64,000 bases of DNA from Bacteroidales bacterium. Lineage in GTDB: Bacteria > Bacteroidota > Bacteroidia > Bacteroidales > UBA932. Position 1 is the stretch's first letter, and each line of letters opens with the position of its first letter. The notes beneath the pieces were generated by a model. That model made no database searches. It was not told where the DNA came from and worked only from the letters and a program-made list of their open reading frames with translations. The position numbers and the translations under genes are program-made. Below, one piece after another: positions 1 to 64,000 of the stretch. The stretch is from NCBI GenBank assembly GCA_017423025.1, contig JAFPGC010000049.1, forward strand, positions 21,212 through 85,211. The letters run 5' to 3'.

Positions 1-127
1 GCTGGGGGCCCTCCTTTTGGAAAAAGAAGTTATCTTTGCAGAAGATATTGAAAAGATCCTCGGTCCTAAGGTCAAACCTGCGGTAGAGGACCAGTTCCAA
101 CCGGAACCCGAAACCCTTGAGGCATGA
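1..127 (+). CDS. ftsH: FtsH zinc metalloprotease, C-terminal end (partial)
   Basis: Only the last 41 codons are present (reading frame begins at base 2). The translation contains LLEKEVIFAEDIEKILG, the conserved tail of the AAA+ membrane protease FtsH, followed by an acidic, Pro/Glu-rich end typical of Bacteroidetes homologues. FtsH degrades misfolded and short-lived membrane proteins. Its TGA stop overlaps the ATG of the next gene (ATGA at 124-127), so translation is probably coupled. The order ftsH-cdsA-psd is common in Bacteroidetes, which supports the call despite the short fragment. Confidence 0.8.
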   Translation, partial: LGALLLEKEVIFAEDIEKILGPKVKPAVEDQFQPEPETLEA

Positions 128-960
128 ACGGAACGGTAAAACGCACCATATTCGGAGTCCTTTTCCTGGCAGTAATGCTGGGAGGACTCCTTTTCTATGA
201 ATTCCTGTACACGATTCTCTTTGCCTTCATCACCTACGTGATGCTCAAAGAGTTTTACCGAATGACCATGGGAAAGGCCTACGTGCAGTCTCAGAGAAGC
301 GCCGTCATCATGGGCGTCATCTTCTTCCTGGCCACCAACAGTTACTTCTTCGGCAGTTTCAAACTGCCCATGCTGGTTTCCTTTGGCATTATCATGCTGC
401 TGCTTCTCATGGCGGAATCCATCTTCCTCTATAAAGAGAACAGTGATTTCCTCAAGACCGGCTACCTGTATGCGGGATTGGTTTATATCGGCCTGCCGCT
501 GGCGCTTTCCAATGCCGTGGTTTGCCGGGACGGTGAATTCAGCGGCCTCCTGATGGTGGCTTTCTTCTGCATCATCTGGGCCTCTGACGTAGGAGCCTAC
601 TGCTTCGGCATGCTCTTCGGCCAGAAATCCTGGAGCAAGAAGATGTGCCCTGCCATCTCGCCCAAGAAATCCTGGGCAGGCTTCTGGGGTGGTCTGCTGA
701 TGGCCATGCTGGCCGGTGCCATCCTTTACTGGACCGGGCTCTTTGCCTTCCCGTTGTGGCACTGCCTCATTGTATCGGCCCTGATGCACGGAATGGGTGT
801 ACTGGGAGATTTGTTCGAATCCCTGTGGAAGCGCGCTACCGGCATCAAGGATTCCGGTAATATCATCCCCGGGCACGGCGGCCTCATGGACCGCTTCGAC
901 AGCGCCCTGTTCGCCATCCCCACGGGATATATTTATTTGCTTATTTTTAGCCTGATCTAG
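124..960 (+). CDS. cdsA: Phosphatidate cytidylyltransferase CdsA
   Basis: Integral membrane enzyme that makes CDP-diacylglycerol from CTP and phosphatidic acid, the branch point of phospholipid synthesis. The 278-residue product is highly hydrophobic with about seven or eight membrane segments. The C-terminal family signature is clear at about residues 233-259: S-x-W-K-R, then K-D-S-G, then P-G-H-G-G-L-M-D-R-F-D, which carries the Asp/Lys metal and substrate residues. SDVGAY (about 157-162) and SPKKSWAG are further conserved family segments. Length is normal. It overlaps ftsH by 4 bp and lies 3 bp before psd, so the two phospholipid genes are one transcription unit. Confidence 0.95.
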   Translation: MNGTVKRTIFGVLFLAVMLGGLLFYEFLYTILFAFITYVMLKEFYRMTMGKAYVQSQRSAVIMGVIFFLATNSYFFGSFKLPMLVSFGIIMLLLLMAESIFLYKENSDFLKTGYLYAGLVYIGLPLALSNAVVCRDGEFSGLLMVAFFCIIWASDVGAYCFGMLFGQKSWSKKMCPAISPKKSWAGFWGGLLMAMLAGAILYWTGLFAFPLWHCLIVSALMHGMGVLGDLFESLWKRATGIKDSGNIIPGHGGLMDRFDSALFAIPTGYIYLLIFSLI

Positions 961-963
961 CCT

Positions 964-1641
964 ATGAAGTGGGTACGCATTGATAGGGACTCTTACGGAA
1001 CCATCGTTACCAGTTGGCTCATTTGCGCCTTGCTCATCCTCCTGGTTTCGCAGCTCATCCATATCTGGTGGGTGAGCCTTCCCATCTGCATTTTGCTCTT
1101 TGTGTTCATGGTGTTCATCACCTGGTTCTTCCGCGTTCCCGACCGCCAGACCCCCGATGAGGAAAACCCTCGTCTGGTTACTTCCGTGGCCGACGGCAAG
1201 GTGGTCATTGTGGACAAAGTGTATGAGAAAGAGTTCCTCCACAAAGACTGCATCCAGATTTCCGTGTACATGGATTTCTTTGACGTGCATTGCAATTTCT
1301 GGCCCATCTCCGGCGAGATAACCTATTATAAGTATCACCCTGGCAAATACCTGCTGGCTTTCCATCCCAAGTCTTCCGAGCTTAACGAGCACGCCTCCTC
1401 GGCCATGAAGAACGGCTATGGCGAAATCCTGTTCAAGCAGATTGCCGGCACCTTTGCCCGCCGCATTGTCTGCTATTCGCAGGAAGGCCATCAGGAGTAC
1501 CGTGGAGACCAGTGCGGCGTAATCAAATTCGGCTCCCGCATAGACCTGTTCGTCCCGCTGGAAGCCGATGTAAAAGTAAAGGTAGGTGATAAAGTCCGAG
1601 CCGTAGAAAGCGTTCTGGCTATTTTACCTGATCATTCTTAA
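964..1641 (+). CDS. psd: Phosphatidylserine decarboxylase proenzyme (short type)
   Basis: Converts phosphatidylserine to phosphatidylethanolamine. The 225-residue protein has an N-terminal membrane hairpin (about residues 14-57), the SVADGKV segment, the DFFDVHCNF active-site region and the self-cleavage site IKFGSR at about 188-193. Ser191 should become the pyruvoyl cofactor after autocleavage. This is the short archaeal/Bacteroidetes class rather than the longer E. coli form with LGST. The gene starts 3 bp after cdsA. Its 3' end overlaps the convergent ispG gene by 23 bp (1619-1641). Confidence 0.93.
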   Translation: MKWVRIDRDSYGTIVTSWLICALLILLVSQLIHIWWVSLPICILLFVFMVFITWFFRVPDRQTPDEENPRLVTSVADGKVVIVDKVYEKEFLHKDCIQISVYMDFFDVHCNFWPISGEITYYKYHPGKYLLAFHPKSSELNEHASSAMKNGYGEILFKQIAGTFARRIVCYSQEGHQEYRGDQCGVIKFGSRIDLFVPLEADVKVKVGDKVRAVESVLAILPDHS

Positions 1642-2872
1642 TTAATTCAACCAAACGTTCTACAGCCTCGTTCTCGGGTATATGCCTGAGGACGGGTTCT
1701 TTTTTACGGTAGAGGGTGACCTTGCCGGCGCCTTCGCCCACGTAACCGTAGTCGGCATCGGCCATTTCTCCGGGGCCGTTCACAATACAGCCCATGACGG
1801 CGATGACTACATCCTTGAACTCTCCTGTAGCCGCTTTGACGCGGTTGAAGGTCTCTTCCAGGTTGTACAGCGTGCGGCCGCACCCCGGGCAGGCAATGTA
1901 TTCAGGCTTGTAGAATTTGCGCCGGCAGGCCTGCAGAATCTCGTCCTTGAGATATTCGTCCTCCAGCGGGATGTCGTCCACCTCGTGGTTCAAAAGGGGA
2001 GCGCCATAATCGCAGGCGGCTTTGAGGATGGTTTCTTCGCGTTCACCGAGGCTCACGGAAGGGGCGCTGGAATAGCGATGAGCCAGGTACTGGGCCACCG
2101 GGAGTTCGTTCTGCGGAGGCTCGGTCAGGGAAACGCGGATGGTATTGCCTATTCCTTCTTCCAGCAGGGTGGAAATGGCCACGCAGCTCTTGATGCGGCC
2201 GCTGTCGCCGTTGCCGGCCTCGGTAACGCCCACATGCAGGGGAAAAACCACCCCGCGTTCCTTCATCATGCGGGCCAGGTTGCGATAGGCATTCACCATC
2301 ACCACGGTGTTGGATGCCTTGAGGGAGACCACGACATTGTAGAAACCCGCCTCAATGCACATTTCAACCCATTCCATGGCAGCCAGGGCCATGGCCTCGG
2401 GCGTATTGCCGTATTTCTCCACGATATACTTGCCCAGGGAACCATGATTAAGGCCGATGCGGATGGCGCGGTCATACTGCTTGCAAAGGCCCAGGAACTG
2501 GCCGAAAAGGGCCCGCGCCTTCTCATGATCGGGATGGAAGTTGCCGGGGTTGATGCGGATCTTTTCCACCACCGGCACCACGGCCATGGCAATCTCCGAG
2601 GAGAAGTGGATATCGGCCACCAGGGGAATATTGACGCCATCGGCCCTGAGACGGCTTCTAATCTCTTCCAGATGCTTTACATCGGCCATGGCAGGCACGG
2701 TGATGCGGATGAGCTGGGATCCGGCGGCTGCCAGCAGCTTGCACTGCGCCACGGTAGCTTCTATGTCGGAAGTATGGGTGTTGCACATGGTCTGGACCAC
2801 GATGGGGTGGCCGCTGCCGATGAGCACGTTTTCGCCTACGCGAACGGTACGGGTTTCCAGAATCTCTTTCAT
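1619..2872 (-). CDS. ispG: 4-hydroxy-3-methylbut-2-enyl diphosphate synthase IspG (GcpE)
   Basis: [4Fe-4S] enzyme of the MEP isoprenoid pathway, converting ME-cPP to HMBPP. The N-terminal TIM barrel is evident (IRITVPAM, RINPGN, IRIGLNHGSL). The cluster domain has CPGC (Cys328, Cys331), GCIVNGPGE (Cys362, Glu369) and a short tail. At 417 residues it is closer to the E. coli length than to the roughly 600-residue Bacteroidetes/Chlamydia/plant type with a large middle domain. About 70 residues lie between LTEPPQNE and the first Cys pair, which look like a shortened remnant of that insert. Last gene of the minus-strand unit starting at ligA; its start is 1 bp from the stop of the preceding gene. 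Confidence 0.94.
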   Translation of the reverse strand: MKEILETRTVRVGENVLIGSGHPIVVQTMCNTHTSDIEATVAQCKLLAAAGSQLIRITVPAMADVKHLEEIRSRLRADGVNIPLVADIHFSSEIAMAVVPVVEKIRINPGNFHPDHEKARALFGQFLGLCKQYDRAIRIGLNHGSLGKYIVEKYGNTPEAMALAAMEWVEMCIEAGFYNVVVSLKASNTVVMVNAYRNLARMMKERGVVFPLHVGVTEAGNGDSGRIKSCVAISTLLEEGIGNTIRVSLTEPPQNELPVAQYLAHRYSSAPSVSLGEREETILKAACDYGAPLLNHEVDDIPLEDEYLKDEILQACRRKFYKPEYIACPGCGRTLYNLEETFNRVKAATGEFKDVVIAVMGCIVNGPGEMADADYGYVGEGAGKVTLYRKKEPVLRHIPENEAVERLVELIKNDQVK

Positions 2873-2873
2873 A

Positions 2874-3737
2874 CTACGGCTTCTGTTGCTGCTGATCGGC
2901 CATCATCTTGCGCGCCAGTTTCTTCAGTTGGGCGCGGGTATGGCCATATCGGGGGGTAAGTTGATAATACACGCCAAAGGTAAGGCCGGCATCCAGGGGA
3001 TAGGCAAAACGGTAATAGTACGGACTTACGTAATCCGGCTGCCAGAAGGAACTCCAACCCCATTTGCCGGTCACCATCAGGTGGAATTCAAAGGGATTGA
3101 ACATAAGTCCGAAGCCTACGCCACCTTCCACGCCATAGGAAAGGCGGCGGTCGTAATCACGGAAGGCATCCACGTATTTCTCATATTCTTCAACTCCCGC
3201 ATAATCTTCGTCCAGGATGCGGTGGATTTTGAGCCGGTAGCCGCCGTAGAGACCTACTTTGGCCATAAGCTTGAAATGCTCGCCCATATCTATATGGAAA
3301 TGGGAAAGGAAAAAGACTTCCGGGACCGTCATCATCGCCTTGTAAGCACCGGATTCCGTGAACCGGTACCCCGTCTCACTGCTCCGCTTGAATTCATAGC
3401 CTTCGTAATTCATCTGGGCGCCGAATTCCATACCCATATTAGGGAAGATACCGAACATGGTGAAATGGCGTACCACCGAGAATCCGTAGACAGGATACTG
3501 GAACTGCCAAAGCAAATAGCGGTCCGGATTGAAATAACCGTATTGCGCAGATGCCCCGCCAAACACACCTATCATCCAATAGTCGTTGGGGGCGGCAATG
3601 CTTACCTTGACACTGTCCAGATAGGAATTGGTGACGGAGTCCGGCAGGGAGAAGAACTCTTCTTCCAGATTCACCTGGGCCCTGGAAATCCAACAGAAAC
3701 ATAACAGGGCCGATATTAGGGCAATAGCTCTTCTCAT
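2874..3737 (-). CDS. Probable outer-membrane beta-barrel protein of unknown function
   Basis: 287 residues with a signal peptide (MRRAIALISALLCFCWISRAQ, cleavage near residue 21) and many alternating aromatic/hydrophobic segments such as YGYFNPDRYLLWQF, GMEFGAQMNY, VGLYGGYRLK and GGVGFGLMF, typical of transmembrane beta-strands. The C-terminal 25 residues are basic and Gln-rich (MADQQQQKP), unusual for a barrel that normally ends in an aromatic residue. I do not recognise a named family. It overlaps the upstream lipoprotein gene by 4 bp (ATGA) and precedes ispG by 1 bp, so it is co-transcribed with housekeeping genes. Function cannot be inferred from this placement. Confidence 0.75.
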   Translation of the reverse strand: MRRAIALISALLCFCWISRAQVNLEEEFFSLPDSVTNSYLDSVKVSIAAPNDYWMIGVFGGASAQYGYFNPDRYLLWQFQYPVYGFSVVRHFTMFGIFPNMGMEFGAQMNYEGYEFKRSSETGYRFTESGAYKAMMTVPEVFFLSHFHIDMGEHFKLMAKVGLYGGYRLKIHRILDEDYAGVEEYEKYVDAFRDYDRRLSYGVEGGVGFGLMFNPFEFHLMVTGKWGWSSFWQPDYVSPYYYRFAYPLDAGLTFGVYYQLTPRYGHTRAQLKKLARKMMADQQQQKP

Positions 3738-5539
3738 TCGAACATCTCCTTCATGTTAATCTGCCAAACCATCTCGGACCTTTCCAAAACCTTGATGAGG
3801 AACTGGTCTTCCACTTTGAAGAATCGCACCTTCTCGGGCTGCTTCTTCTGCAGCAGCACACCGGTATCAACCATCCCGTTGCGGTTCTTGTCCTCTGTAA
3901 TACGGATACAATAGGCACCCTGCTTAAGGTAGGGGAATACCACCGGACCAGACTTGTCGACAAGGAAACTGCGGATGACCTTATCGCGCTTTTCCGTGAG
4001 CAGTTCCACCAGGTAGCGGTTGTGTACACCACTCAGTTCCAAAGTTATGAAACTGAGTTTATCATCCTTGGGAAGGGTAACTTTCAGCAGGGTACTGTCG
4101 TTATAATACCCGTTGACATCGCGGAACTTGCGGTGCGGAATCTTCAGATTATAATCGTATCCCACCTGGAAAGGCTCCGTAGGCATAATCCGGAAATGCC
4201 GGAGATTGGTGGTATCCTTAATTACCTTAACGCTTCCCTTGGCCTCCTGCTGGCGGGGATTCACACTCCAGAACTGCAGAGAATCCCATCCATCCTCAAT
4301 GAGCGGGTAGGTGAACTCCAAATCAAAGCCGTATTGCTCCACCGTAGTAGGATCCACGGTCGCTTTAAATACAGCAATCGTGTCCTCGTGCTTGCGGTCA
4401 CGGTAGTTGTTTTCCTTTTTCATAATCTCGGCCCTCAATTCCTTGGAATAGGTGAGCTTGATGAGCTCTTCCTGGGGAATGAGCTTGCCGGTCGTGTCCG
4501 TTTTGTCGTACTTCACAACCAGCTGGAGGGTATCCGGCATCTTGCGCTGGTCGTTAACCCACAGTTCCAGCGAATCTCTCTGAAGATTGAACTGCCGAAT
4601 GAGTTTCTCGCGCGGGAGACCTCTGACACGCATGTCGTGGATAACGGCATCGGGAGCCATGAAGGTGAGGTAGGCCGTACGGGGTCCCACCCTTTCTTTC
4701 TTGACGATATACTGCTTGGAAGGCCGTTCGCGGAAGAGGTTCAGTTCTATCTGGGCATGACGGGCCAGGCACAGGGCCGTATCCTTCATGTCAAACTTCT
4801 TGAACTCGTAAAGACTGTCGTTGTATACGATGGTGGGCCTCAGGAGGCTGTCCAGGAATGCGATGCGCTCCGTCTCCGGATCATATTTGTTGTTGTTGTT
4901 CTCGTCCTTGATGGCGTACACCCGGTAAAGGGTATCCTGGATGTTTCGGATGGCAAAATACCCCCAGTCATCGGTCTTGGCGGCAGCCACGGGACGTTTC
5001 AGGAAGACAGCCGAGTCGGAATGGTCCTTATACAGGAGAACGGTAGCACCCTTGATGGGCATGAGGGTATTGCAGTCCTGGACCAGGCCTGTCACGCACA
5101 TGGAGTCAATTTTGTCTCCCGTGGAAAACACCAGGGTATATCCTGGAAAGAGATTGCCTTCATTGTTATCGGCAATGGCTCCTGTCAAATCCAGGGTATA
5201 AGTGGTATTGCTGTCCAGTTCGCTTTCGAAACTTACGTCCAAAGACTTGCCATGGATGGCCGATTTGGGCTTCTTCTCCAGCGGAGGGGAGAGGTAGATG
5301 GCGTTGGCGTCCTTGATCTTCACGTATTCGTTGAAAGTGAAGCGCAACTTGGTTTTGGTGGGCATATTGACCGCACCGGGCAAGGGCGCAACCTTGGTTA
5401 GCACCGGGGGAATGGTGTCCTTGGGCCCTCCCGAAGGGGGTGTTGTGGTGTTGGCACAACCCGAGGGGAGCATCAGGGAGCCCAGGATCAGGGCAGCCGG
5501 AATGAGCGGCAGGAATTTTTTCAGGGGATGTTGGCTCAT
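3734..5539 (-). CDS. Ig-like domain lipoprotein (Big_5-type), Bacteroidetes family
   Basis: 601 residues with a lipoprotein signal (LMLPSGC, lipid-modified Cys near residue 28), followed by the characteristic PPSGGPKDTIPPV motif and a bacterial Ig-like domain at about 40-145 (LRFTFNEYVKI, TYTLDLTGAIADNN). A carboxypeptidase-regulatory-like segment follows, then two acidic DxN/DxD loops (DENNNNKYDPE near 215 and DKNRNGMVDTG near 560) that resemble calcium-binding loops. It is predicted to be anchored in the outer membrane or periplasm. This architecture is widespread in Bacteroidetes but has no established role that I know. It overlaps rel upstream and the barrel gene downstream by 4 bp each, so translation is likely coupled. 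Confidence 0.8.
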   Translation of the reverse strand: MSQHPLKKFLPLIPAALILGSLMLPSGCANTTTPPSGGPKDTIPPVLTKVAPLPGAVNMPTKTKLRFTFNEYVKIKDANAIYLSPPLEKKPKSAIHGKSLDVSFESELDSNTTYTLDLTGAIADNNEGNLFPGYTLVFSTGDKIDSMCVTGLVQDCNTLMPIKGATVLLYKDHSDSAVFLKRPVAAAKTDDWGYFAIRNIQDTLYRVYAIKDENNNNKYDPETERIAFLDSLLRPTIVYNDSLYEFKKFDMKDTALCLARHAQIELNLFRERPSKQYIVKKERVGPRTAYLTFMAPDAVIHDMRVRGLPREKLIRQFNLQRDSLELWVNDQRKMPDTLQLVVKYDKTDTTGKLIPQEELIKLTYSKELRAEIMKKENNYRDRKHEDTIAVFKATVDPTTVEQYGFDLEFTYPLIEDGWDSLQFWSVNPRQQEAKGSVKVIKDTTNLRHFRIMPTEPFQVGYDYNLKIPHRKFRDVNGYYNDSTLLKVTLPKDDKLSFITLELSGVHNRYLVELLTEKRDKVIRSFLVDKSGPVVFPYLKQGAYCIRITEDKNRNGMVDTGVLLQKKQPEKVRFFKVEDQFLIKVLERSEMVWQINMKEMFE

Positions 5540-7782
5540 AGTTCGCTTCGGCTTACATTCTCGATTCCTTCAATGGAAGAGAGTTTCTTGATCATCTTGT
5601 CCAGGATGTCCTTGGAATTCACATACAGGTCTATATACCCTTCGAAGAGGCCTCCTTCGGCCGCCAGGTTGAGCCGGCGCATATTCACGCCCATTACCAG
5701 AGACACGCGGCGGGTAATCTCATTGAGCATACCCACGCGATCCAGGCCCTTGAGGGTGATGCGAACCAGGAAAGAGGTGTCTTCGGCCTGTTCCAGCCAC
5801 TTGGGAACCACCACCCAGTCTCCGTGACGGGCGGCGATGCGGTCAGCCACGGCGCAGGTTTTCTTGTGTACGGTGATGGTGCCATCCGGGGCCTTGATGC
5901 CCACCACGGCATCTCCCGGAATGGGATTGCAACAGGTGGCGATAGAGAAATGGGGCGCATTGGGATCCGTAGAACCAATGATATACGTCTCCCCGGGTTT
6001 CTCTTCTGCCTTGGACTCCGGGCGGAACATCTTCCGGATCCAGGAGAGTCTGCCACCAGAGGAATGCTTCATGATTTCCGGCAGGTTGTCCAGGCTGATC
6101 TGCCCCATGGCGACGGCATAGTACAATTCATCGCGGGTACCCATGTCGTAAGCCACTTCCAACCTCTGGAGAGTGGTCTCGTCACATTCGTATCCCAGGT
6201 CTTTGATGGCCGATTCCAAGGTGGTGCGGCCATATTCCAGCGTCTGCTTTCGCTGGTTCTTGAAATAGTCCGTCACCACGGTGCGGGCGCGGTGCGTCTG
6301 AAGGAACTTGATCCACTCGGGCTGAGGCTTTCCGTCTTCGGCCGTAATGATCTCCACCTTGTCGCCGGTCTTGAGTTCCTGGCTCAGTTTCACCAGCTTC
6401 TGGTTCACCTTGGCGGCAATGGCCTTGTTGCCAATCTCCGTATGGATGCCATAGGCAAAGTCCAGGGCCGTAGAACCTTTGGGAAGACTGCGCTGCTCTC
6501 CGCGAGGGGTAAAGACATAGATATCGGGGGAGGTGAGGTCTTTGTGGATGATATCCAGCAGTTCCAGGGCGTTGACGTCCGGATTCACCAGGATGCCCTT
6601 GATACGGTCCAGCCAGGAATCCATCTCGTAATCGCCTTCACCCATGATGCCGTGCTGCTTGTAGTTCCAGTGGGCGGCAATACCCTTTTCGGCAATGTCA
6701 TCCATACGACGGGTACGGATCTGGACTTCCACCCAGACGCCGGAATTGCTGAGCAGGGTACAGTGCAGGGCCTCATAACCATTGGACTTGGGATGCTTCA
6801 CCCAGTCCCTCAGACGCTCCGGCATATACCGGTAAATGCCGGTAATGATGGAAAAGATGTGGTAGCACTGGTCACGTTCGCTTTCGGCCGAGTTGGGATC
6901 TGCGTCAAAGATGATGCGGATGGCATACAGGTCGTAGACTTCCTCAAAACTGATGCCCTTGGTCTGCATCTTCTGCCAGGCCGAATAGGGCGTCTTCACG
7001 CGTTTTTTAATTTCAAAATGGAAACCTGCCTTCTCCAGGGCCGCTTCAATAGGCAGCACGAATTCGGCCATTTCCTTGCCTTTCTCCTCGATACCACGGT
7101 CTATCCGGGCCTTGATATCGGCATAGGCATCGGGTTCCTTATATCGCAGCCAGATGTTTTCCAGTTCGGTCTTGATGCTATACAAGCCCAGACGGTGTGC
7201 CAGCGGAATGAAGATGAACATGGTTTCCGAGAGAATCTTGTCCCGCTTGTGTTCCGGCATGTGCTCGATGGTGCGGCAGTTGTGCAGGCGGTCGGCCAGT
7301 TTGATGAGAACCACCCTCACGTCATCGTTCATGGTGAGGAGGATGCGCTTGAAATTCTCGGCCTGGATGCTCTGCTGGGAAATATCCGTCCCCTTGGTCT
7401 TCTGCTCCGTATCCAGCACGTTCTTGATCTTGGTAAGGCCATCTACCAGCGAAGCGATCTTCTCTCCAAAATGCTCTTTGATGTCTTCTACCGTATAATC
7501 CGTATCTTCCACCACATCATGGAGAAGGGCGGCCGATATGGACTTATAGCCCAGGCCGATGTCATCTACCACAATCTGCGCCACGGCAATGGGATGAAGC
7601 ATATACGGCTCACCGCTGCGGCGCCGCACGTTACGGTGGGCGTCGTTGGCAAACTCGAAGGCTTTTTTCACCACCTCCATTTCCTGCATATTGGCACATC
7701 GCTTTTGGGCCGATGCCTTCAGCACCTCCCAATCCCGGGAAATGACCTCGTAGTCTATCTCTCCAAACTCGGAAAAACTCAT
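5536..7782 (-). CDS. rel: Bifunctional (p)ppGpp synthetase/hydrolase RelA/SpoT
   Basis: Single Rel enzyme making and degrading (p)ppGpp in the stringent response. Domains in order: HD hydrolase (about 50-200) with an intact HDVVEDTD motif, so hydrolysis should be active; synthetase (about 245-360) with YDLYAIRIIF and KSNGYEALH; TGS (about 400-460, DIYVFTPRGEQRSLPKGSTA); a helical/zinc-finger region with CCNPIPGD; and a C-terminal ACT domain (about 675-748). The 748-residue length is normal. Located between ligA (28 bp upstream) and a lipoprotein gene (4 bp overlap) in one minus-strand unit. Confidence 0.95.
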   Translation of the reverse strand: MSFSEFGEIDYEVISRDWEVLKASAQKRCANMQEMEVVKKAFEFANDAHRNVRRRSGEPYMLHPIAVAQIVVDDIGLGYKSISAALLHDVVEDTDYTVEDIKEHFGEKIASLVDGLTKIKNVLDTEQKTKGTDISQQSIQAENFKRILLTMNDDVRVVLIKLADRLHNCRTIEHMPEHKRDKILSETMFIFIPLAHRLGLYSIKTELENIWLRYKEPDAYADIKARIDRGIEEKGKEMAEFVLPIEAALEKAGFHFEIKKRVKTPYSAWQKMQTKGISFEEVYDLYAIRIIFDADPNSAESERDQCYHIFSIITGIYRYMPERLRDWVKHPKSNGYEALHCTLLSNSGVWVEVQIRTRRMDDIAEKGIAAHWNYKQHGIMGEGDYEMDSWLDRIKGILVNPDVNALELLDIIHKDLTSPDIYVFTPRGEQRSLPKGSTALDFAYGIHTEIGNKAIAAKVNQKLVKLSQELKTGDKVEIITAEDGKPQPEWIKFLQTHRARTVVTDYFKNQRKQTLEYGRTTLESAIKDLGYECDETTLQRLEVAYDMGTRDELYYAVAMGQISLDNLPEIMKHSSGGRLSWIRKMFRPESKAEEKPGETYIIGSTDPNAPHFSIATCCNPIPGDAVVGIKAPDGTITVHKKTCAVADRIAARHGDWVVVPKWLEQAEDTSFLVRITLKGLDRVGMLNEITRRVSLVMGVNMRRLNLAAEGGLFEGYIDLYVNSKDILDKMIKKLSSIEGIENVSRSEL

Positions 7783-7810: not shown

Positions 7811-10003
<2,193 letters not shown>

Positions 10004-19993: not shown

Positions 19994-21295
19994 TCAGCCT
20001 TTGGGATAATACTTTGGCCAGCAGGCTTCTAGATAAGCTTTGAGGACGTTCTCGTGCTTGTTTTCGGCAGGTTCGTAGAATACTTTTCCCTTCAGGGCGT
20101 CGGGCATGAATTCCATATCGGCAAAGTGTCCCGGATAATCGTGGGCATATTTGTAACCATCGGAATAATTCAAGTCCTTCATGAGCTGGGTAGGCGCATT
20201 GCGGATGGGGAGGGGGACCGGCTGGTTACCGGAATTCTTCACCTCGGCCAGGGCCTTTTCAATGGCCAGATACGAAGCATTGCTCTTGGGAGAGGAGGCC
20301 AGGTACACCGTGGTTTCGGCCAGGGGAATCCTTCCTTCCGGCATGCCGATCTTGGACACCACTTCGAAGCAGGCGTTAGCCAGTAAAAGGGCATTGGGAT
20401 TGGCCAGGCCCACATCTTCAGAGGCACTCAGGCACAGGCGGCGGGCAATGAAAAGGGGATCTTCTCCTCCGTCAATCATCCTCGCCAAATAATAGATGGC
20501 CGCATTGGGATCGCTCCCGCGAATGCTCTTGATAAAGGCCGATATAATATCGTAGTGCATCTCGCCATCCTTGTCATAGATGGCCATGTTTTCCTGGATA
20601 GAGGCCGTTACAGTCTCGTTGTCTATGACGATGGGCTTCTTGCCGGCCTGGGCATCCACCACCAGCTCAAGAACGTTGAGAAGCTTGCGGGCATCTCCGC
20701 CGCTGTAACGCATCAGCGCTTCACTCTCCCTAACTTCAATGGGTTTGTCCTTGAGCAGTACATCCTCATGGATAGCCCGGTCCAGAAGCGTTTGCAAATC
20801 ACTCTTTTCCAAAGACTTGAGCACAAAAACCTGGCAGCGGGACAGCAGGGGAGTAATGACCTCAAAGGAAGGATTTTCCGTAGTGGCGCCCACCAGCACG
20901 ATGGTTCCGTTCTCTACGGCGCCCAGCAAGGCATCCTGCTGGGCCTTGTTGAAGCGGTGGATCTCATCGATAAACAGGATGGGAGCGCCTTTCTGGCGAA
21001 ACAGGCCACTGGCCTTGGCCTTATCAAAGACCTCACGCACATCCTTTACCCCGGCCGTAACGGCACTGAGGGTATAGAAATCGCGGTCCAGGGTTTCGGC
21101 TATGATATGGGCCAGGGTAGTCTTACCCACACCGGGAGGCCCCCAGAGAATAAAGGAACTCAGGTTCCCACTCTCTATCATCTTCCGCAGGATGCAGCCT
21201 TGTCCTACCAGATGACGCTGGCCCACATACTGGTCCAGCGTCCTGGGTCTCATCCGCTCGGGGAGCGGAGGCAGCATCACGGATGAAGCAGACAT
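19994..21295 (-). CDS. rarA: Replication-associated recombination ATPase RarA (MgsA)
   Basis: AAA+ ATPase that acts at stalled replication forks, related to RuvB and clamp loaders. 433 residues. N-terminal PLPERMRPRTLDQYVGQ box, Walker A GPPGVGKTT near 52, Walker B FIDEIHRFN near 105, sensor 1 GATTENPSFE near 135, then the C-terminal tetramerisation region (KSIRGSDPNAAIYYLARMI). The YSGGDARKLLN motif is sensor 2. Its ATG directly follows the stop of the upstream GNAT-like gene without a gap, so the two are coupled. Confidence 0.95.
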   Translation of the reverse strand: MSASSVMLPPLPERMRPRTLDQYVGQRHLVGQGCILRKMIESGNLSSFILWGPPGVGKTTLAHIIAETLDRDFYTLSAVTAGVKDVREVFDKAKASGLFRQKGAPILFIDEIHRFNKAQQDALLGAVENGTIVLVGATTENPSFEVITPLLSRCQVFVLKSLEKSDLQTLLDRAIHEDVLLKDKPIEVRESEALMRYSGGDARKLLNVLELVVDAQAGKKPIVIDNETVTASIQENMAIYDKDGEMHYDIISAFIKSIRGSDPNAAIYYLARMIDGGEDPLFIARRLCLSASEDVGLANPNALLLANACFEVVSKIGMPEGRIPLAETTVYLASSPKSNASYLAIEKALAEVKNSGNQPVPLPIRNAPTQLMKDLNYSDGYKYAHDYPGHFADMEFMPDALKGKVFYEPAENKHENVLKAYLEACWPKYYPKG

Positions 21296-41980: not shown

Positions 41981-42576
41981 TGAACCTCCATGGGAAGCAT
42001 ATCATCCTGGGTAGCAACTCGCCAAGAAGGAGAGAATTGCTAAAAGGATTGGATATTGATTTCGAGGTAGATACAAATAACAACTTCGAGGAAAGCTTCG
42101 GAGAAGAGGTCCCCTATGACCAAGTGCCCCGCCTCATGGCCCAGGGCAAGTCTCACAGCTTCCATCGGCCCCTGAAAGAGAATGAGATTCTCATTACGGC
42201 CGACACCATGGTCATCCTTCCCGCAACGGCCCATCGGCCCGGAGAGATTCTGGGCAAGCCCAAGGACCGGGAAGACGCCTGCCGCATGCTCCGGGATCTC
42301 TCCGGACGGGAGCACCACGTGACCACCGCCGTCACCTTGCGGGACGCCACTCACGAAGAGACTTTCGACGTCACCACCGAAGTCTGGTTCAAACCTCTTA
42401 CAGAGGCCGAAATCGCCTATTACGTAGATACTTACAAGCCTTTCGACAAAGCGGGCGCCTATGCCATCCAGGAATGGATCGGCCACATTGGCATTACCCG
42501 CATCGAAGGTTCCTATTTCAATGTGGTGGGCTTCCCCGTCCAGCGCGTGTACGAAGCTTTACAGAGATTCGCGTGA
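41980..42576 (+). CDS. maf: Maf-family nucleoside triphosphate pyrophosphatase
   Basis: 198 residues from ATG at 41980. Hydrolyses non-canonical or specific dNTP/UTP (dTTP/UTP class likely) and is linked to septum inhibition. Motifs: ILGSNSPRRRELL near 9-21, ITADTMVIL near 70, ILGKPKDREDA near 87 and KPFDKAGAYAIQE near 153. The start within kdsC's last codon and a GTGA overlap with the following gene make a tight three-gene set. Confidence 0.92.
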   Translation: MNLHGKHIILGSNSPRRRELLKGLDIDFEVDTNNNFEESFGEEVPYDQVPRLMAQGKSHSFHRPLKENEILITADTMVILPATAHRPGEILGKPKDREDACRMLRDLSGREHHVTTAVTLRDATHEETFDVTTEVWFKPLTEAEIAYYVDTYKPFDKAGAYAIQEWIGHIGITRIEGSYFNVVGFPVQRVYEALQRFA

Positions 42577-56979: not shown

Positions 56980-56986
56980 ATCTTTA

Positions 56987-56994
56987 CAAAGATA
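56987..56994 (-). promoter_or_regulatory. -7 promoter element for the flavodiiron-heptose unit
   Basis: TATCTTTG on the minus strand, 7 bp upstream of ATG 56979 and 19 bp upstream of ATG 56967. Confidence 0.6.
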
Positions 56995-57053
56995 GCGAAA
57001 AAAAGCTTATCCTGTGCCAAAGAAATGTTGTAGGGAAACTCGCTTTTTTTTCG

Positions 57054-57061
57054 TAAATTTG
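57054..57061 (+). promoter_or_regulatory. -7 promoter element of the tetraheme-SUMF1 operon, abutting the start codon
   Basis: TAAATTTG ends 5 bp before the ATG at 57067. No close -33. Confidence 0.5.
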
Positions 57062-57066
57062 GGGAA

Positions 57067-58590: not shown

Positions 58591-58613
58591 TAATTAATCT
58601 AATACTAATATCC

Positions 58614-59957
58614 ATGAGCGCTAAAATGAACAGAAGATCCTTCCTGACTGCCGGTGCGGCAGCGGGAGCCGCCGGTCTGTTGGGCGGCGCACTTCTTACC
58701 TCCTGCTCGGGCGGCAATAAACAAAAGCCGCTCCGCGAGCCCGGTTCCTATTACATCCCCGAACTGCCGGACAAAGCCATTGACGGGCGCCCCCTGAAGG
58801 CCGGTCTCATTGGCTGCGGCGGCCGCGGAAACGGTGCCGTGGACAACCTGCTGGAAGCTGCCAATGGCATTACCATCACCGCTCTGGGAGATGTTTTCCC
58901 GGACCGGGTCGAGGCCACCAGGAAAGCCATCGCCGAGAAGCATGGACAGGAAGTGCCGGCCGATCATTGCTTCACCGGCTTTGACGCCTATCAGAAGGTC
59001 ATCGACAGCGGTGTTGACATGGTCATCGTGACCACCCCGCCGGCTTTTCGTCCCATCCACTTCCAGTATGCCACTTCCAAGGGCGTACACTCTTTTTTGG
59101 AGAAACCGGTTTGCGTAGACGCCAAGGGCTACCGCACCATGATGGCCACCGCTAAGCAGGCCGAGGCCAAAGGACTGTGCGTAGTCACGGGCACCCAGCG
59201 CCATCACGAGCGTTCCTATGTGGCCGCTTTCGAGAAGATCCAGGAAGGCATCATCGGTGAAATCACCGGAGGAAATGTCTATTGGAACCAGGGTATGCTC
59301 TGGTACCGCGAGCGCCAGGCCGGCTGGAGCGACATGGAATGGATGATCCGCGACTGGGTAAACTGGAAATGGCTCTCGGGAGACCATATCGTGGAGCAGC
59401 ATGTGCACAACATCGACGTGTTTACCTGGATGACGGGCAAGCATCCCATCAAGGCCACGGCCTTCGGCAGCCGCCAGCGCCGCGTCACCGGTGACCAGTA
59501 CGACAATTTCAGCGTTGACTTCGAATTTGAGAACGGCGTCCATCTGCACAGCATGTGCCGCCAGATAGACGGCTGTTCCTCCAACATCAGCGAACATGTC
59601 CAGGGCACCAAGGGTGTCTGGCACTCCAACGGGGAAATCTATGACCTGAAGGGAAATCTCATCTGGAAATACGACGATGAGGCCGCCAAGAATGCCTTCT
59701 CCCAGCACAATCCCTATGTTCTGGAGCATGTGGACTGGGTGAATCACATCCGCAAGGGTGAAACGCACGTAGAGGCTGCCGAGACGGCCCTTTCCACCCT
59801 GGCCGGTATCATGGGCCGCGAGGCTGCCTACACCGGTGCCACCGTGGAGTGGGACCAGATGAGCGCCGCCGACCAGGATTGGATTCCGGAGAAGCTGGAG
59901 CTTGGAAAAATGGACATGAGTGCATACACCGTTCCCGTTCCGGGTACGGCTAAATAA
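58614..59957 (+). CDS. Tat-exported Gfo/Idh/MocA-family oxidoreductase lipoprotein
   Basis: 447 residues. Twin-arginine leader MNRRSFLTAGAAAGAAGLLG running into a lipobox LTSC (Cys near 32), so probably Tat-translocated and lipid-anchored. Rossmann motif LIGCGGRGNGAV near 66, ITALGDVFPDR, VIVTTPPAF, VHSFLEKPVCVD near 160 with the EKP Lys. C-terminal substrate domain: WSDMEWMIRDW, HVHNIDVFTWM near 265. 23 bp after the tetraheme gene and 8 bp before the TIM-barrel gene: one operon. Presumed NAD(P)-bound sugar/glycoside oxidoreductase in the periplasm. Confidence 0.9.
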   Translation: MSAKMNRRSFLTAGAAAGAAGLLGGALLTSCSGGNKQKPLREPGSYYIPELPDKAIDGRPLKAGLIGCGGRGNGAVDNLLEAANGITITALGDVFPDRVEATRKAIAEKHGQEVPADHCFTGFDAYQKVIDSGVDMVIVTTPPAFRPIHFQYATSKGVHSFLEKPVCVDAKGYRTMMATAKQAEAKGLCVVTGTQRHHERSYVAAFEKIQEGIIGEITGGNVYWNQGMLWYRERQAGWSDMEWMIRDWVNWKWLSGDHIVEQHVHNIDVFTWMTGKHPIKATAFGSRQRRVTGDQYDNFSVDFEFENGVHLHSMCRQIDGCSSNISEHVQGTKGVWHSNGEIYDLKGNLIWKYDDEAAKNAFSQHNPYVLEHVDWVNHIRKGETHVEAAETALSTLAGIMGREAAYTGATVEWDQMSAADQDWIPEKLELGKMDMSAYTVPVPGTAK

Positions 59958-59965
59958 GCCTTGGT

Positions 59966-60865
59966 ATGGATAGGAAAACCTTCTTGAAAACCACGCTGGC
60001 CGGAGCGGCTGCCCTTGCGGTCGCCCCCGGCACCCTGGTCTCCTGCGCCACGCCGCAGAAAAAGAATTCCACGCCGCTGCGCCTTTCCTTCCAGGAGGGC
60101 GTCACGCCTGGCGAAAGCCTGGCCCAGAAGCTGGATTTCATGGAAAAACTGGGCGTCACCGGATTTGAACCCGGAGGACGTGGCCTGGCCGGCCGGGTCC
60201 AGGAAATCCGCGAGGCATTGCAGGGCAGAGACATAAAGGTATCGGCCATCTGTGCCGGATTCGAAGGCTTCATGCTGGCTCAGGATCCGGAGGAAAAGGC
60301 CAAGTTTGACACGTCCATGCGCGAAATTGTGCGCGCTGCGGGAGAACTGGGTTCCACGGGCGTCATCATGGTGCCTGTGTTCAACTGGCAGCAACCCGTC
60401 CTCCCTCATACACTAGAGACACGTGAGTACCTCTGCGCCCAATTGCACGATCTGGGAGAATTCGCCCTCAGCTGCGGCACAAGCGTCATTCTGGAACCGC
60501 TCAACCGCAAGGAAGCTTTCTACCTGAGACTGGTGGCCGATGCCGCCGCCATCTGCCGGGATGCCGATAGCGAAGGCGTCAAGTGCATGGGAGACTTCTG
60601 GCACATGCAGGAAGAGACCTCCGATTATGCCGCTTTCATGGCGGCAGGGTCATACCTCCGGCACGTCCACATCGCCAGCCGCGGAAACCGGGTCATGCCC
60701 GGAGAAGACGGCGAGAAGGACAAATACGTGGATGGCTTCCGCGCCCTCAAGGAACTGGAATATCCGTACTACGTGAGCCTGGAATGCGGTTGCCGGGGAG
60801 AAGACCGGGCCGCTGCCCTTGAGACAGCCGCCAACCTGCTGCGCAGCCAGTGGGAAGAAGCCTAG
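59966..60865 (+). CDS. Exported xylose-isomerase-like TIM-barrel protein
   Basis: 299 residues. Leader MDRKTFLKTTLAGAAALAVA with an RK (twin-arginine-like) pair and lipobox LVSC (Cys near 28). AP2/xylose-isomerase-like barrel: LRLSFQEGVTPGE, VTGFEPGGRGL, VSAICAGFEGF, VIMVPVFNWQ, VILEPLNRKEAF near 170, CMGDFWHMQEE near 208, HVHIASRGNR near 230, VSLECGCRG near 270. Glu-Pro-Leu and His/Asp positions fit a metal-binding site. Final gene of the tetraheme-oxidoreductase operon. Its stop overlaps the convergent ccsA gene by 4 bp. Confidence 0.85.
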   Translation: MDRKTFLKTTLAGAAALAVAPGTLVSCATPQKKNSTPLRLSFQEGVTPGESLAQKLDFMEKLGVTGFEPGGRGLAGRVQEIREALQGRDIKVSAICAGFEGFMLAQDPEEKAKFDTSMREIVRAAGELGSTGVIMVPVFNWQQPVLPHTLETREYLCAQLHDLGEFALSCGTSVILEPLNRKEAFYLRLVADAAAICRDADSEGVKCMGDFWHMQEETSDYAAFMAAGSYLRHVHIASRGNRVMPGEDGEKDKYVDGFRALKELEYPYYVSLECGCRGEDRAAALETAANLLRSQWEEA

Positions 60866-61641
60866 TAAGTATGAACCGATAAGCCGCCATGCGCTGAAGG
60901 GAGGTAATTGATTCCCCACCAGCAGATTTGCAGGCAAACGAAGCTGACCAGCAGAATGATGCAGGATATCTGCCATTCTGCTGGTTTTGCTTTGCGGAAA
61001 TGCAGATACACAAGGTAACATAACCAGGTGGCGGCCGCCCAGGTTTCCTTCGGATCCCAGGCCCAGTAGGTTCCCCAGGCCTCCTTGGCCCAAAGGGCAC
61101 CGAAAAGCATTCCGAAAGTAAGGAAAGCCTGGCCCACATATACCAGATTATCGGTCAGGTTGATTTCCTTCTGCGTGGTCTTGTCCTTCCTGACCAGCAT
61201 CCAGATGGCCATCACGGTAGCCGCTCCCAACAGCGCATAAGAAAACATATACACTATCACGTGCGGGGCAAACCAGGGGCTCTGCAGGGCCGGCATCAGG
61301 TTTTTGGAATGAATCTCCGGCTTGAACAGGTTCACACAGATGAATACGAAGGAAAGCAGCGTGGAGAAGCTCAGAATCCATTTATAGCGCCAGCGGCTGT
61401 AGACGATGATACCCGCCACTGGCAGAAAGAAGGAATACCACAGACGGGTCTCCCCCATCGTCCGGAGGGGCGGACGTTCCAGAGACACCCACATACCCAG
61501 AATAAAAGCAAAGAATACGGCAATACCGGCCAGTGTACAAATATAGACCCATGTCTTGCGCCCTTTCCAGGCGAAAAAGGCACCGGCAACCCACAGGAGC
61601 ACCGCTCCTAAAGCAAAATATACGAAGGAATCCCAACTCAT
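60862..61641 (-). CDS. ccsA: Cytochrome c biogenesis protein CcsA (CcmC/CcmF-like haem handler)
   Basis: 259 residues, about eight membrane helices. The haem-binding tryptophan-rich signature is WGTYWAWDPKETWAAATW near 190-207, the WWD domain of CcsA/CcmC/CcmF. His residues in VIVYMFSY/HVIVYM (about 128) and near the C terminus (AHGGLSVHTY) fit the periplasmic haem ligands. CcsA and ResB/CcsB form system II, which attaches haem to CxxCH. Overlaps resB by 4 bp. Its neighbour 57067 is the only c-type cytochrome in the window. Confidence 0.9.
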   Translation of the reverse strand: MSWDSFVYFALGAVLLWVAGAFFAWKGRKTWVYICTLAGIAVFFAFILGMWVSLERPPLRTMGETRLWYSFFLPVAGIIVYSRWRYKWILSFSTLLSFVFICVNLFKPEIHSKNLMPALQSPWFAPHVIVYMFSYALLGAATVMAIWMLVRKDKTTQKEINLTDNLVYVGQAFLTFGMLFGALWAKEAWGTYWAWDPKETWAAATWLCYLVYLHFRKAKPAEWQISCIILLVSFVCLQICWWGINYLPSAHGGLSVHTY

Positions 61642-62534
61642 TCTTTCACAGGTTTAGGAGCCATAAACAACATCAGGCACAGGGCACCGGCCAGCATCAT
61701 GAAAATGCCTAGATAGACCCAGGCAATCCAGGGGTCTTTGACCAGCTGGAATACGCTGTAGTCACTCTCAGGGCCCTTATTTACATCATAACTGTACTGG
61801 TAAATCTTCCAGCCGTTCACTTTGAGGGGTTTGTTCACTTCCACGGTTCCCTGGACCGTCTTTCCATCCTCGGTATAGACGGAAATGTCCGAAGCAAAAC
61901 GCTTGGGCATCTTGTTCGGATATAACTCCATAGTGAACTTGTGCAGTTCAATGGCCAGGCCCGGCTCGTGCAACCTTCCCATCTCGTCCAGCGCCCTCCA
62001 TTCCGGTTCTCCGGTATAGGCAGTAAGCTCGAGGCTTTGGATATCGGCATTCCCTAAAGTGGCGGCGACGATGGCCACCACTACACCTAAATGATTCAGG
62101 ATGAAGGGAATCTCCTTCCATTTCCAGCGGAGCAGATGATTCAGCGCCGCCAGGGCCGATATGAGCATCATCCAGCTCCAGATAAGCACGAATGGCCAGA
62201 AACTGAGCATCTGGCTCAGCCAGGGCATCCCCCCTTCACGAACCTGCGGCAGAAGGCCCATCAGCATAGTAAGCGAAGCGGCATAAATCAGGCAGGGAAC
62301 GGCCGCACCGGCGTGCATCATCCATTCGAAAGCGTAGACTTCCTTACGAAGCGCATACAGAATGCCCACCGCCGCCAGCAGCAGAATCAATACTATCAGG
62401 TTGACCGGCCAGGCCAGGCGGGTCCAATTCACAGGACCCAACAGGACTTGCAGCAGCAGGCCCGCACAAATAAGGCCCCCTCCTATGAGGAAGCCCACCT
62501 TCATACTCCAGGGTTTTTTCCACATAACGCCCAC
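61638..62534 (-). CDS. resB: Cytochrome c biogenesis protein ResB (CcsB)
   Basis: 298 residues. Several helices in the N-terminal half (VGFLIGGGLICAGLLLQVLL, WVYLGIFMM at the end) and a large periplasmic segment between. LNHLGVVVAIVAATLGNADIQ near 158-178 and GWKIYQYSYDVNKGPESDYS near 250 are typical of the ResB family. Length is short for ResB (usually 400-550), comparable to the smaller Bacteroidetes form. Forms system II with CcsA in one unit. Confidence 0.88.
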   Translation of the reverse strand: MGVMWKKPWSMKVGFLIGGGLICAGLLLQVLLGPVNWTRLAWPVNLIVLILLLAAVGILYALRKEVYAFEWMMHAGAAVPCLIYAASLTMLMGLLPQVREGGMPWLSQMLSFWPFVLIWSWMMLISALAALNHLLRWKWKEIPFILNHLGVVVAIVAATLGNADIQSLELTAYTGEPEWRALDEMGRLHEPGLAIELHKFTMELYPNKMPKRFASDISVYTEDGKTVQGTVEVNKPLKVNGWKIYQYSYDVNKGPESDYSVFQLVKDPWIAWVYLGIFMMLAGALCLMLFMAPKPVKE

Positions 62535-62555
62535 TAATTTAGACTAAATAATCCG

Positions 62556-62580
62556 GTTTGGCAAAAACAAAGTGCCAAAC
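62556..62580. promoter_or_regulatory. Inverted repeat between resB and the DUF389 gene (candidate operator)
   Basis: GTTTGGCA-N9-TGCCAAAC, perfect 8-bp arms, in the 95-bp divergent gap. No regulator is assigned. Confidence 0.5.
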
Positions 62581-62605
62581 AAGGGTATATTTTTAAAAAA
62601 TTGCT

Positions 62606-62612
62606 TATCTTG
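62606..62612 (+). promoter_or_regulatory. Weak -7-like element before the DUF389 gene
   Basis: TATCTTG, one base short of TAnnTTTG, 17 bp before the ATG at 62630. No good -33. Confidence 0.35.
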
Positions 62613-62629
62613 CACCAAATTAGAGGGGT

Positions 62630-63823
62630 ATGGACATCAAATCAATTTGGAACCGCTTCCGCCGGGTAGTCAGATACTACGCCTATATCTTCGACGAGAT
62701 TGACACTGCGAGCGCCACTCAGCGCATCAAAGCGTCCATCTGGTTCCACGGTCCCAATGCCTGGATCCTGGCCTTCGCCATCGTCCTGGCGTCGGTGGGT
62801 CTCAATGTGAACTCCACCGCCGTCATCATCGGCGCCATGCTGGTGTCTCCGCTTATGGGCCCCATCATCGGCACCGGCCTGGCCCTGGGCACCAACGATC
62901 TGGACCTGCTCAAATCGGCCAGTAAAAACCTGCTGGTGATGGTGATTATCTCCCTGCTGGCTTCCACGCTGTTTTTCCTGCTCTCTCCCCTGTCGCTGGT
63001 GAATCCTACGGAGCTCATGGCCCGCACCAGTCCTACCATCTACGATGTCCTCATTGCCTTCTTCGGCGGTATGGCCGGCATCCTGGAGAACAGCCGCAAA
63101 GAGCGCGGAACGGTGCTCTCGGGCGTTGCCATTGCCACGGCCCTCATGCCTCCGCTGTGTACCGCCGGTTACGGTCTGGCCCACTTTAACATGCACTTTT
63201 TCATCGGCGCGCTTTACCTGTTTGTAATTAACAGCGTATTCATCGCGCTGGCCACTTATCTGATGGTCAGATACTTGAAATTCCCCACGGTCTCCGGCAT
63301 TACGGAAGGGACGGCCACCCGTCGCCGCCGCGCCATCAGCACCGTACTGGTCATCATCCTGGTGCCCAGCATCTGGAGTGCCTTCACCCTCATCCGCAAC
63401 AACAATTTCGAGAGGAACGTGCAGAACTTCGTGGAGAACAACCGCCTGGTCGCGCCCCGTACCTATATATATGATTATCGCGTGGATGGCCGCAAGGCCG
63501 AGATAGCCCTCGCCGGTGAGCCCCTGGACAACGACCTCCGCGCCAGCATCTACGTCAAGGCGGGCCGATACAATATCAAGCAAAAAGATCTCACCCTCCT
63601 CGAACATTCCTTCGGCCTGTCCCAGCAGGACATGAACACCATCATCGAAGAAATCTATACCAACACCAACATAGAACTGGACGAGAACCAGGCCCTCCTG
63701 GAATCCATGGAGTCCCGCCTGGAAGACATGGCCCGGGAGATTAACCGCCTAAAAGAACGGCAGGACCTGCTGACCACGCAAATGCAGCAAGCCCAGGCCG
63801 ATACAACTATGAATAAACAATAA
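62630..63823 (+). CDS. DUF389 family membrane protein
   Basis: 397 residues. Soluble N-terminal segment to about 30, then six or seven membrane helices (AWILAFAIVLASVGLNVNS, ALFLFVINSVFIALATYLMV). The conserved DUF389 blocks are STAVIIGAMLVSPLMGPI near 65-82 and GVAIATALMPPLCTAGYGL near 165. The C-terminal part (about 260-397) is soluble and ends in an acidic coiled coil (LESMESRLEDMAREINRLKERQD). Function of the family is unknown. Last protein gene in the window; a candidate small RNA lies just downstream on the other strand. Confidence 0.9.
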   Translation: MDIKSIWNRFRRVVRYYAYIFDEIDTASATQRIKASIWFHGPNAWILAFAIVLASVGLNVNSTAVIIGAMLVSPLMGPIIGTGLALGTNDLDLLKSASKNLLVMVIISLLASTLFFLLSPLSLVNPTELMARTSPTIYDVLIAFFGGMAGILENSRKERGTVLSGVAIATALMPPLCTAGYGLAHFNMHFFIGALYLFVINSVFIALATYLMVRYLKFPTVSGITEGTATRRRRAISTVLVIILVPSIWSAFTLIRNNNFERNVQNFVENNRLVAPRTYIYDYRVDGRKAEIALAGEPLDNDLRASIYVKAGRYNIKQKDLTLLEHSFGLSQQDMNTIIEEIYTNTNIELDENQALLESMESRLEDMAREINRLKERQDLLTTQMQQAQADTTMNKQ

Positions 63824-63826
63824 TCC

Positions 63827-63854
63827 TTTTTTTATGCTTGCGGGCATAAAAAAA
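63827..63854. terminator. Hairpin with A/T-tracts after the DUF389 gene (bidirectional)
   Basis: TTTTTTTATGC-N6-GCATAAAAAAA, 11-bp stem. On the minus strand the T-run also follows the hairpin of the candidate small RNA. Confidence 0.65.
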
Positions 63855-63966
63855 AGAGTGTCGGCCTGTCTCAGGCGGACGCTCTCACTAACCACATAAT
63901 TAATAACACTAAAACTAATAACCAATAGACTGATTCCGTTGAGAGAACCTCACTTCCTCAATCCGG
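63848..63966 (-). ncRNA. Candidate small RNA with own promoter and terminator
   Basis: On the minus strand a consensus promoter (-33 TTTG at 63997-64000, 19-bp spacer, TACCTTTG at 63970-63977) drives about 115 nt with no credible ORF. The 5' part can fold (CCG, TTGAG ... CTCAA, CGG). The 3' part is a GAGAGCGTCCGCCT ... AGGCCGACACTC hairpin (one mismatch, one G-U) followed by eight T residues, an intrinsic terminator. The only possible reading frame is a very short peptide of 8 codons (MWLVRASA). Not a tRNA. It could belong to a Bacteroidales sRNA or attenuator family; I cannot name it. Confidence 0.5.
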
Positions 63967-63969
63967 ATA

Positions 63970-63977
63970 CAAAGGTA
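63970..63977 (-). promoter_or_regulatory. -7 element of the candidate small RNA
   Basis: TACCTTTG on the minus strand with TTTG at 63997-64000 as -33. Confidence 0.65.
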
Positions 63978-64000
63978 CGGCAAATTTTTGGATTTGCAAA

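Follow-up and report, generated by a model that had tools for sequence, protein, structure and literature searches.

A clade-specific seven-base word iterated across a Bacteroidales genome and its possible reading as a Chi-type recombination mark

The stretch of DNA analysed here, referred to as the window, comprises 64,000 nucleotides of a Bacteroidales bacterium of GTDB lineage UBA932 (assembly GCA_017423025.1, contig JAFPGC010000049.1, positions 21,212 to 85,211 of the forward strand), and its most frequent 7-mer is the asymmetric word GGCCGAT, or ATCGGCC on the opposite strand. The 103 copies, 53 forward and 50 reverse, are spread over the entire window (1..64000). A preliminary description had put them at about 100, or one per ~640 bp, against about 10 from base composition; our count and the computed expectation of 9.6 agree with both figures, and GGCCGAC, estimated there at roughly a dozen, occurs 12 times (GGCCGAA 53 times). 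Nearly all copies are genic, as also described: 93 lie within 50 called genes and 8 in two more long open reading frames, and the two outside called genes are both on the minus strand (42164..42170 and 42233..42239).

The excess was measured against two null models, a synonymous codon shuffle that fixes proteins and codon use, and the same shuffle with the bases flanking each codon (the junctions) fixed as well (30 shuffles each; 200 for the window under the second). The called genes of the window hold 93 copies against 18.6 under the junction-keeping null (maximum 29), so that the ten-fold enrichment of the preliminary description stands relative to base composition and falls to about five-fold relative to coding constraints. 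We extended the count to an own-genome sample made up of the window and 20 further genome stretches (one of them only N), about 371 kb of letters, of which 339 kb of coding DNA entered the shuffles. This coding DNA contains 618 copies versus 105 under the first null (maximum 128) and 112 under the second (maximum 127), which makes GGCCGAT by far the most over-represented 7-mer (z 48-50; observed-to-expected ratio, O/E, 5.5). The host genome, G000 (2,388,874 bp in 88 contigs, 87% complete), carries 4066 copies (2086 + 1980) in 2.39 Mb, one per 587 bp, compared with 167 + 151 of the reversed word. A codon-aware null and the rest of the genome had been named as the places where the initial claim might fail; the excess persists under the former and the enrichment is genome-wide in the latter, and the view that amino-acid usage does not account for the word therefore holds.

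All six strand and frame classes are enriched, from 2.7- to 18-fold (the smallest class has 5 copies versus 0.95), in line with the early remark that the word occurs in both orientations and in different frames. Between genes, 265 short gaps from clade samples (21.8 kb, GC 0.39) contain 16 copies where a first-order Markov model expects 1.84, and the controls in the same gaps are flat (GGCCGAC 2 versus 1.1; reversed word 1 versus 1.7). The word was also said to force the uncommon isoleucine codon ATA. ATCGGCC is indeed read as ATA TCG GCC at the three sites given as examples, where GGCCGAT stands on the plus strand inside minus-strand genes (3708..3714 in gene 2877-3737, 20537..20543 in gene 19997-21295, and 62154..62160 in gene 61641-62534), and the called genes of the window hold five such occurrences. 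In the own-genome sample ATA makes up 9.6% of all isoleucine codons, yet it is used at 28 of the 47 that precede Ser-Ala and at 27 of the 29 that precede TCG GCC. Given the codon nulls, the enrichment in all frames, the use of ATA and the copies in gaps between genes, codon or protein preference cannot explain GGCCGAT.

We compared the host with 60 other species of one genus, designated uncultured Bacteroidales, Bacteroidia or Prevotellaceae and sourced mostly from ruminant stomachs. Among them GGCCGAT ranges from background to 3333 copies per genome in G019, whose sample gives 376 versus 68 under the codon null, followed by G028 (2598), G037 (1912), G005 (1795), G057 (1702), G038 (1632), G003 (1571), and G054 (1370); in the pool L031/L034/L055/L029 the O/E under the codon null reaches 9. 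In some relatives the word takes other forms. TGCCGAT dominates in G057 (194 versus 45 under the codon null, with GGCCGAT at 121 versus 43) and has its genome-wide peak there (2678 versus 326 reversed), while GGACGAT accompanies GGCCGAT in G038 and G037 and TGCCGAT in G051. A second family is built on GAATAT: GGAATAT occurs 102 times versus 22 under the codon null in G042, and GGAATAT or TGAATAT is raised 2- to 3-fold in G017, G044, and G033. Genome-wide counts of KGAATAT (K being G or T; reversed word in brackets) are 3630 (460) in G042, 2914 (613) in G017, 2468 (299) in G033, 2371 (195) in G044, 2312 (168) in G020, and 1963 (270) in G049, those for G020 and G049 having the reversed word as their only comparison, and 517 (323) in the host. 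The reversed word is a loose control; that of GGCCGAT contains TAG/CTA and is probably low by itself, so that the codon null is the better measure. The ratio is misleading in G041 (KGAATAT 1672 versus 463) and G013 (2337 versus 761), where the codon null reveals no strong word despite a 3- to 4-fold excess over the reversed word. Codon-null scans of samples likewise found no strong word in G016, G052, G032, and G039, and in samples between 19 and 37 kb in size G003, G005, G014, and G034 have weak or no excess.

On a ValS tree of 81 rows, the clade that holds the species of the window (clade A) has 24 of its 27 rows marked GCCGAT; the three unmarked ones are stretches no longer than 3-12 kb. 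L051, which lies just outside the main clade, is marked as well. A separate clade contains six GAATAT rows and one unmarked row, L089. A distant second GCCGAT place is formed by L079, and L082 is a weak stray (14 versus 6). The word is thus a clade trait and its dialects follow phylogeny. In the distant group, the uncultured Prevotellaceae L079 and L096 have GGCCGAT/TGCCGAT at 21 versus 5 and 16 versus 4, which may reflect convergence or a transferred reader. In other families of the order, GGCCGAT likewise exceeds the reversed control (G077 474 versus 34, G088 1192 versus 264, G094 1320 versus 275). Several further candidate dialects were set aside: GGCAAT in G030 (112 versus 53) is weaker and lacks the shared flank described below, AGGCTAT in L094 and L097 (22 versus 5) is tentative, KACAGGA in sparse species has an O/E at background, and a general shape NGNNNAT for all dialects is carried by the two strong families only. 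AGGGGAG/CTCCCCT is raised in L080, L083, L086, and pooled relatives (51 versus 15 in the pooled called genes) and is seen again in further species.

The copies of GGCCGAT load genes evenly (dispersion 1.04 over 223 genes), and even spacing was rejected, as inter-copy distances look exponential (mean 530, sd 546). In clade A the copies have no strand bias relative to GC skew (473 on the G-rich versus 471 on the C-rich strand), and the KGAATAT clade gives 215 versus 179 (p 0.08); in both cases GC skew is not validated here as a leading-strand marker and the replichores are not known. No strand or replication polarity was seen in this comparison, nor the replichore bias that a segregation signal like KOPS (FtsK-orienting polar sequences) requires. 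Genes with a GC content at third codon positions (GC3) below 0.6, 26 genes from G000, G019, and part of G028, are word-poor (16 copies in 25.3 kb versus 1043 in 575.8 kb), in part because the codon null also expects fewer copies in them (O/E 1.8 for eight own genes versus 5.8 at GC3 above 0.7). Ten of the low-GC3 genes were compared with Pfam; two are of mobile-element type (an integrase and a YhcG nuclease), and most others look ordinary or have no match. In G019, a small island that encodes an integrase and a YhcG-like nuclease is free of the word over 3.2 kb, and the adjoining 16.8 kb hold 28 copies. A search of viral contigs with the integrase of a word-free island found no relatives, and no CRISPR (clustered regularly interspaced short palindromic repeats) arrays, which could have led to phages of these hosts, were recognised in the sampled loci. 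Among the one-base neighbours of the word, changes at position 2 are low (0.41-0.50) and TGCCGAT (2.15) and GGCCGAA (1.72) are raised, with no clear pattern of Vsr-like depletion. Words containing GATC are strongly avoided in the G000 sample (CGATCA/TGATCG 42 versus 142 under the junction-keeping null), and this avoidance probably accounts for the depletion of C at position 8 (GGCCGATC).

Retention between relatives was examined in aligned genes at sites with unchanged amino acids, the expectation being the product of codon retention rates. At 38 loci of dense relatives the exact word is kept in 199 of 290 cases (O/E 3.03 against 1.19 for the median word; rank 2 of 824 words), and at 36 sparse loci in 29 of 164 (O/E 1.14). 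The dense loci were picked by word density, and part of their excess may represent repeated gain at the same sites. The excess at the dense loci is not seen in a Ser-Ala subset of few genes, where ATCGGCC is kept in 30 of 76 cases and its control in 36 of 53, the test over 38 and 36 loci being the broader one.

A further signal lies in the flanks, which we measured at third codon positions with amino-acid correction around 1375 GGCCGAT copies. T is raised at -4, with a ratio of 2.46 (z 5.7, N 86), and C at +13, with one of 1.31 (z 9.2, N 1012), within a weakly C-rich, T-poor tract that extends mainly downstream to about +34. The C at +13 is present whether the copy is sense (1.28) or antisense (1.38), is confirmed with dipeptide-matched controls (1.29, z 6.5), and recurs at TGCCGAT in G057 (1.53, z 6.1). 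KGAATAT of the other clade has both features, T at -4 (2.25, z 6.0) and C at +13 (1.25, z 3.0). No C at +13 with z 3.5 was found in the control word sets (six for clade A, three for clade B), and the 160 GGCCGAT copies of G057 itself have none at z 3. Codon constraints confound the signal at -2, -1, 8, and 9, the depletion of C at 8 and the A at -3 are seen in control words too, and stray signals occur in controls (C at 19 for GGCCGAA; C at 32 and 35 for another word); some C excess also lies upstream, at -24 and -15 in G057 and at -21 for antisense copies in clade A. In the gaps between genes of its own clade, KGAATAT is enriched more weakly than GGCCGAT (14 versus 7.3, P 0.018). We consider the existence of the iterated word, of the dialects, and of the flank to be firmly established; the dialects, the flank, and the clade pattern go beyond what the preliminary description saw. 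The asymmetry of the word and the sharing of the flank across dialects argue for one protein system, likely a single recognition system with dialects.

Which protein might read the word was approached through homology searches. Of the methyltransferase families PF00145, PF07669, PF01555, and PF02384, none has a match in G000, at 87% completeness and with other methyltransferase families not searched; G019 has PF07669 alone of the four, and G028 has PF01555 and a weak PF07669. PF00437, the ATPases of type IV pili and type II secretion systems that belong to the known Gram-negative DNA-uptake machines, and which we take to include VirB11 of type IV secretion systems, is over cut-off in none of 11 motif-rich genomes (seven GCCGAT, four GAATAT), where only weak matches occur. 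It is over cut-off in 2 of 15 genomes, G016 and G041, in which no strong word was found. ComEC is present in 60 of the 61 genomes searched, the host included, and being near-universal is uninformative on competence. An AddB-like protein (PF12705; frames of 944-1047 amino acids) was found in all 15 genomes searched, and 14 of them, all but G033, have a further, AddA-like match, that of G003 having internal stops. NCBIfam adds kinship below its curated cut-offs to the AddB, RecB, and AddA families for three AddB-like proteins (G016, G000, G042) and one AddA-like protein (G016). Among the readers tested, only the AddB-like protein is present in all 11 motif-rich genomes. The AddB tree of the 15 genomes separates seven GCCGAT species (support 100) from four GAATAT species (support 100), as does the species tree, and 12 AddB columns separate six strong GCCGAT from the four GAATAT species. 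As to gene order, the addB-like and addA-like genes lie apart (on another contig or ~20 kb or more away) in G000, G019, G028, G037, G054, and G057, all with GCCGAT words; in G042, G017, G016, G041, G030, G013, G044, and G003, a few kb separate them.

On these grounds we infer, at about even chances, that GGCCGAT is a Chi-type recombination mark read by the AddAB enzyme of these Bacteroidales. We favour this reading because, of three known kinds of system, no other had its machine turn up in every place where the word did. After entering at a DNA break, AddAB would degrade DNA that lacks the word; on meeting the word it would leave a 3' single strand for RecA, and selection for repair of the cell's own DNA would keep the word frequent genome-wide. 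Break entry, degradation, and formation of a 3' single strand at Chi for RecA are described for AddAB of B. subtilis (PMC4824097). The recognition word would have about seven bases and be specific to a clade, with TGCCGAT and GGACGAT as dialects in relatives and KGAATAT in another clade.

Several points weigh against this reading. The link between AddAB and GGCCGAT is indirect throughout, and the AddA-like match of G000 itself is below cut-off. AddAB also occurs in G016, G041, and G013, where no strong word was found; the agreement of the AddB tree with the dialects would be expected from vertical descent alone, and a sequence search found no solved relative on which to map the 12 dialect-separating columns. 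To our knowledge, Chi dialects inside one genus have not been described. The lack of strand bias relative to GC skew is unlike Chi of E. coli, 75% of which is on the leading strand (PMC5959072). However, this does not exclude Chi, since according to the same source Pseudomonas Chi is over-represented without strand bias and Chi skew is insignificant in B. subtilis, S. aureus, and H. influenzae.

Among the alternatives, the word may be the binding site of an abundant DNA-binding protein (for the nucleoid, for chromosome organisation, or as an undescribed self-mark) selected for its density. A flank that stretches over ~18 bp or more points to the footprint of a protein, and the word is tied to no one tested protein; however, there is no candidate protein and we know of no DNA-binding protein with thousands of selected exact 7-mers, which leaves this explanation unlikely. 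A DNA uptake sequence (DUS), where free DNA bearing the word is preferred by a receptor and the word becomes distributed over the genome by transformation, would fit the 4066 copies in 2.39 Mb and the phylogeny-consistent dialects, which resemble those of Neisseriaceae. The uptake signal sequence (USS) of Haemophilus also combines an asymmetric core with a downstream flank, and ComEC is present in nearly all the genomes. The 943 to 5918 DUS copies per Neisseriaceae genome (PMC3630211) and the preference of Riemerella columbina, itself of the Bacteroidota, for its own DNA (PMC7965970) add to this side. Against it stand the distribution of PF00437 (below cut-off in the 11 motif-rich genomes, above it in two without a strong word), a core shorter than known DUS/USS, and the single inverted pair among 12 listed copies in gaps under 500 bp, and we regard uptake as doubtful. 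A site made or kept via an orphan methyltransferase, for example one directing mismatch repair, is improbable. Like the highly iterated palindromes (HIPs) of cyanobacteria, which occur on both strands and have alternates in other species (PMC4390886), GGCCGAT has thousands of copies on both strands and is replaced in other species. The penultimate A of the asymmetric word would suit an enzyme forming N6-methyladenine. However, the four methyltransferase families are without match in the host within the limits given above, and the word is not palindromic, its palindrome ATCGGCCGAT (offset 3) occurring 10 times in the own-genome sample. It is scarcely credible that the word arises as a side effect of mutation bias or of a preference for certain codons, codon pairs, or amino acids. 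Codon-pair effects do exist, and the 14 best 7-mers of nine pooled sparse species reach an O/E of 1.7-2.4 under the identical codon null, but the values here are 5.5 and, in the four-locus pool, 9, in all frames and strands, in gaps between genes, and with use of the rare ATA. Of the interpretations in the preliminary description, the Chi-like one now leads; a selectively favoured methyltransferase site and uptake by known machinery find no support in the families searched, and the word differs from the palindromic HIP1.

In more general terms, it seems to us an evenly balanced proposition that GGCCGAT is an own-DNA word whose reader is linked neither to methylation nor to pili, and whose dialect changes between clades of one genus while positions 1 (K), 2 (G), and 6-7 (AT) and the flank are kept. 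Such marking could represent either Chi dialects of AddAB within a single genus or a self-DNA system not described before, and could act as a barrier to recombination or gene flow between clades. For AddAB of B. fragilis, a 2014 paper states that the Chi sequence is unknown (PMC4027173), and our literature search, with subscription papers mostly outside it, found no description of a Bacteroidales Chi or of the GGCCGAT word. The words reported here are concrete candidates for a Bacteroidales AddAB Chi, with the dialect of the other clade as a built-in control. If they are Chi, Chi specificity shifts between clades of one genus, and it becomes testable in gut Bacteroidales how self/non-self recognition and recombination barriers evolve. 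If they are not, they constitute an undescribed genome-wide DNA mark in this group.

Other repeats were encountered in the samples. L007:5046-5727 (G000:C8) is a tandem array of a 62-bp unit with eight copies in register and AAAGCACA...TGTGCTTT dyads; AGCACAAA or AGCACAA is repeated also in L074 and L087, and the top words of the called genes there do not include it. L104:13612-13860 (G028:C63) has three near-copies of a unit with TGTACATACAG dyads.

It is instructive to compare GGCCGAT with known iterated words. Like HIP1 and the alternate HIPs of cyanobacteria, it is highly iterated and genome-wide, and other words replace it in some species; unlike HIP1, it is not palindromic, and its host is without match to the four methyltransferase families. 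With the DUS of Neisseriaceae and the USS of Pasteurellaceae it shares its copy number, its presence on both strands, its mostly genic location, and dialects that follow phylogeny, but its core is shorter and the pilus-type uptake ATPase family is not over cut-off in the motif-rich genomes. The known Chi words include GCTGGTGG in E. coli, AGCGG in B. subtilis, and GCTGGCGC in P. syringae. Compared with these, GGCCGAT is denser, at one per 587 bp, than Chi of E. coli at one per 4.5 kb or the P. syringae octamer at one per about 3 kb (4564 copies of its 7-mer in 4.98 Mb; PMC5959072). It also differs in having dialects within one genus and in that its recognition is inferred here. Nevertheless, like the Chi of AddAB and RecBCD, it is short, asymmetric, and over-represented, and like that of Pseudomonas it is without strand bias; an AddB homologue is present in 15 of 15 genomes searched.

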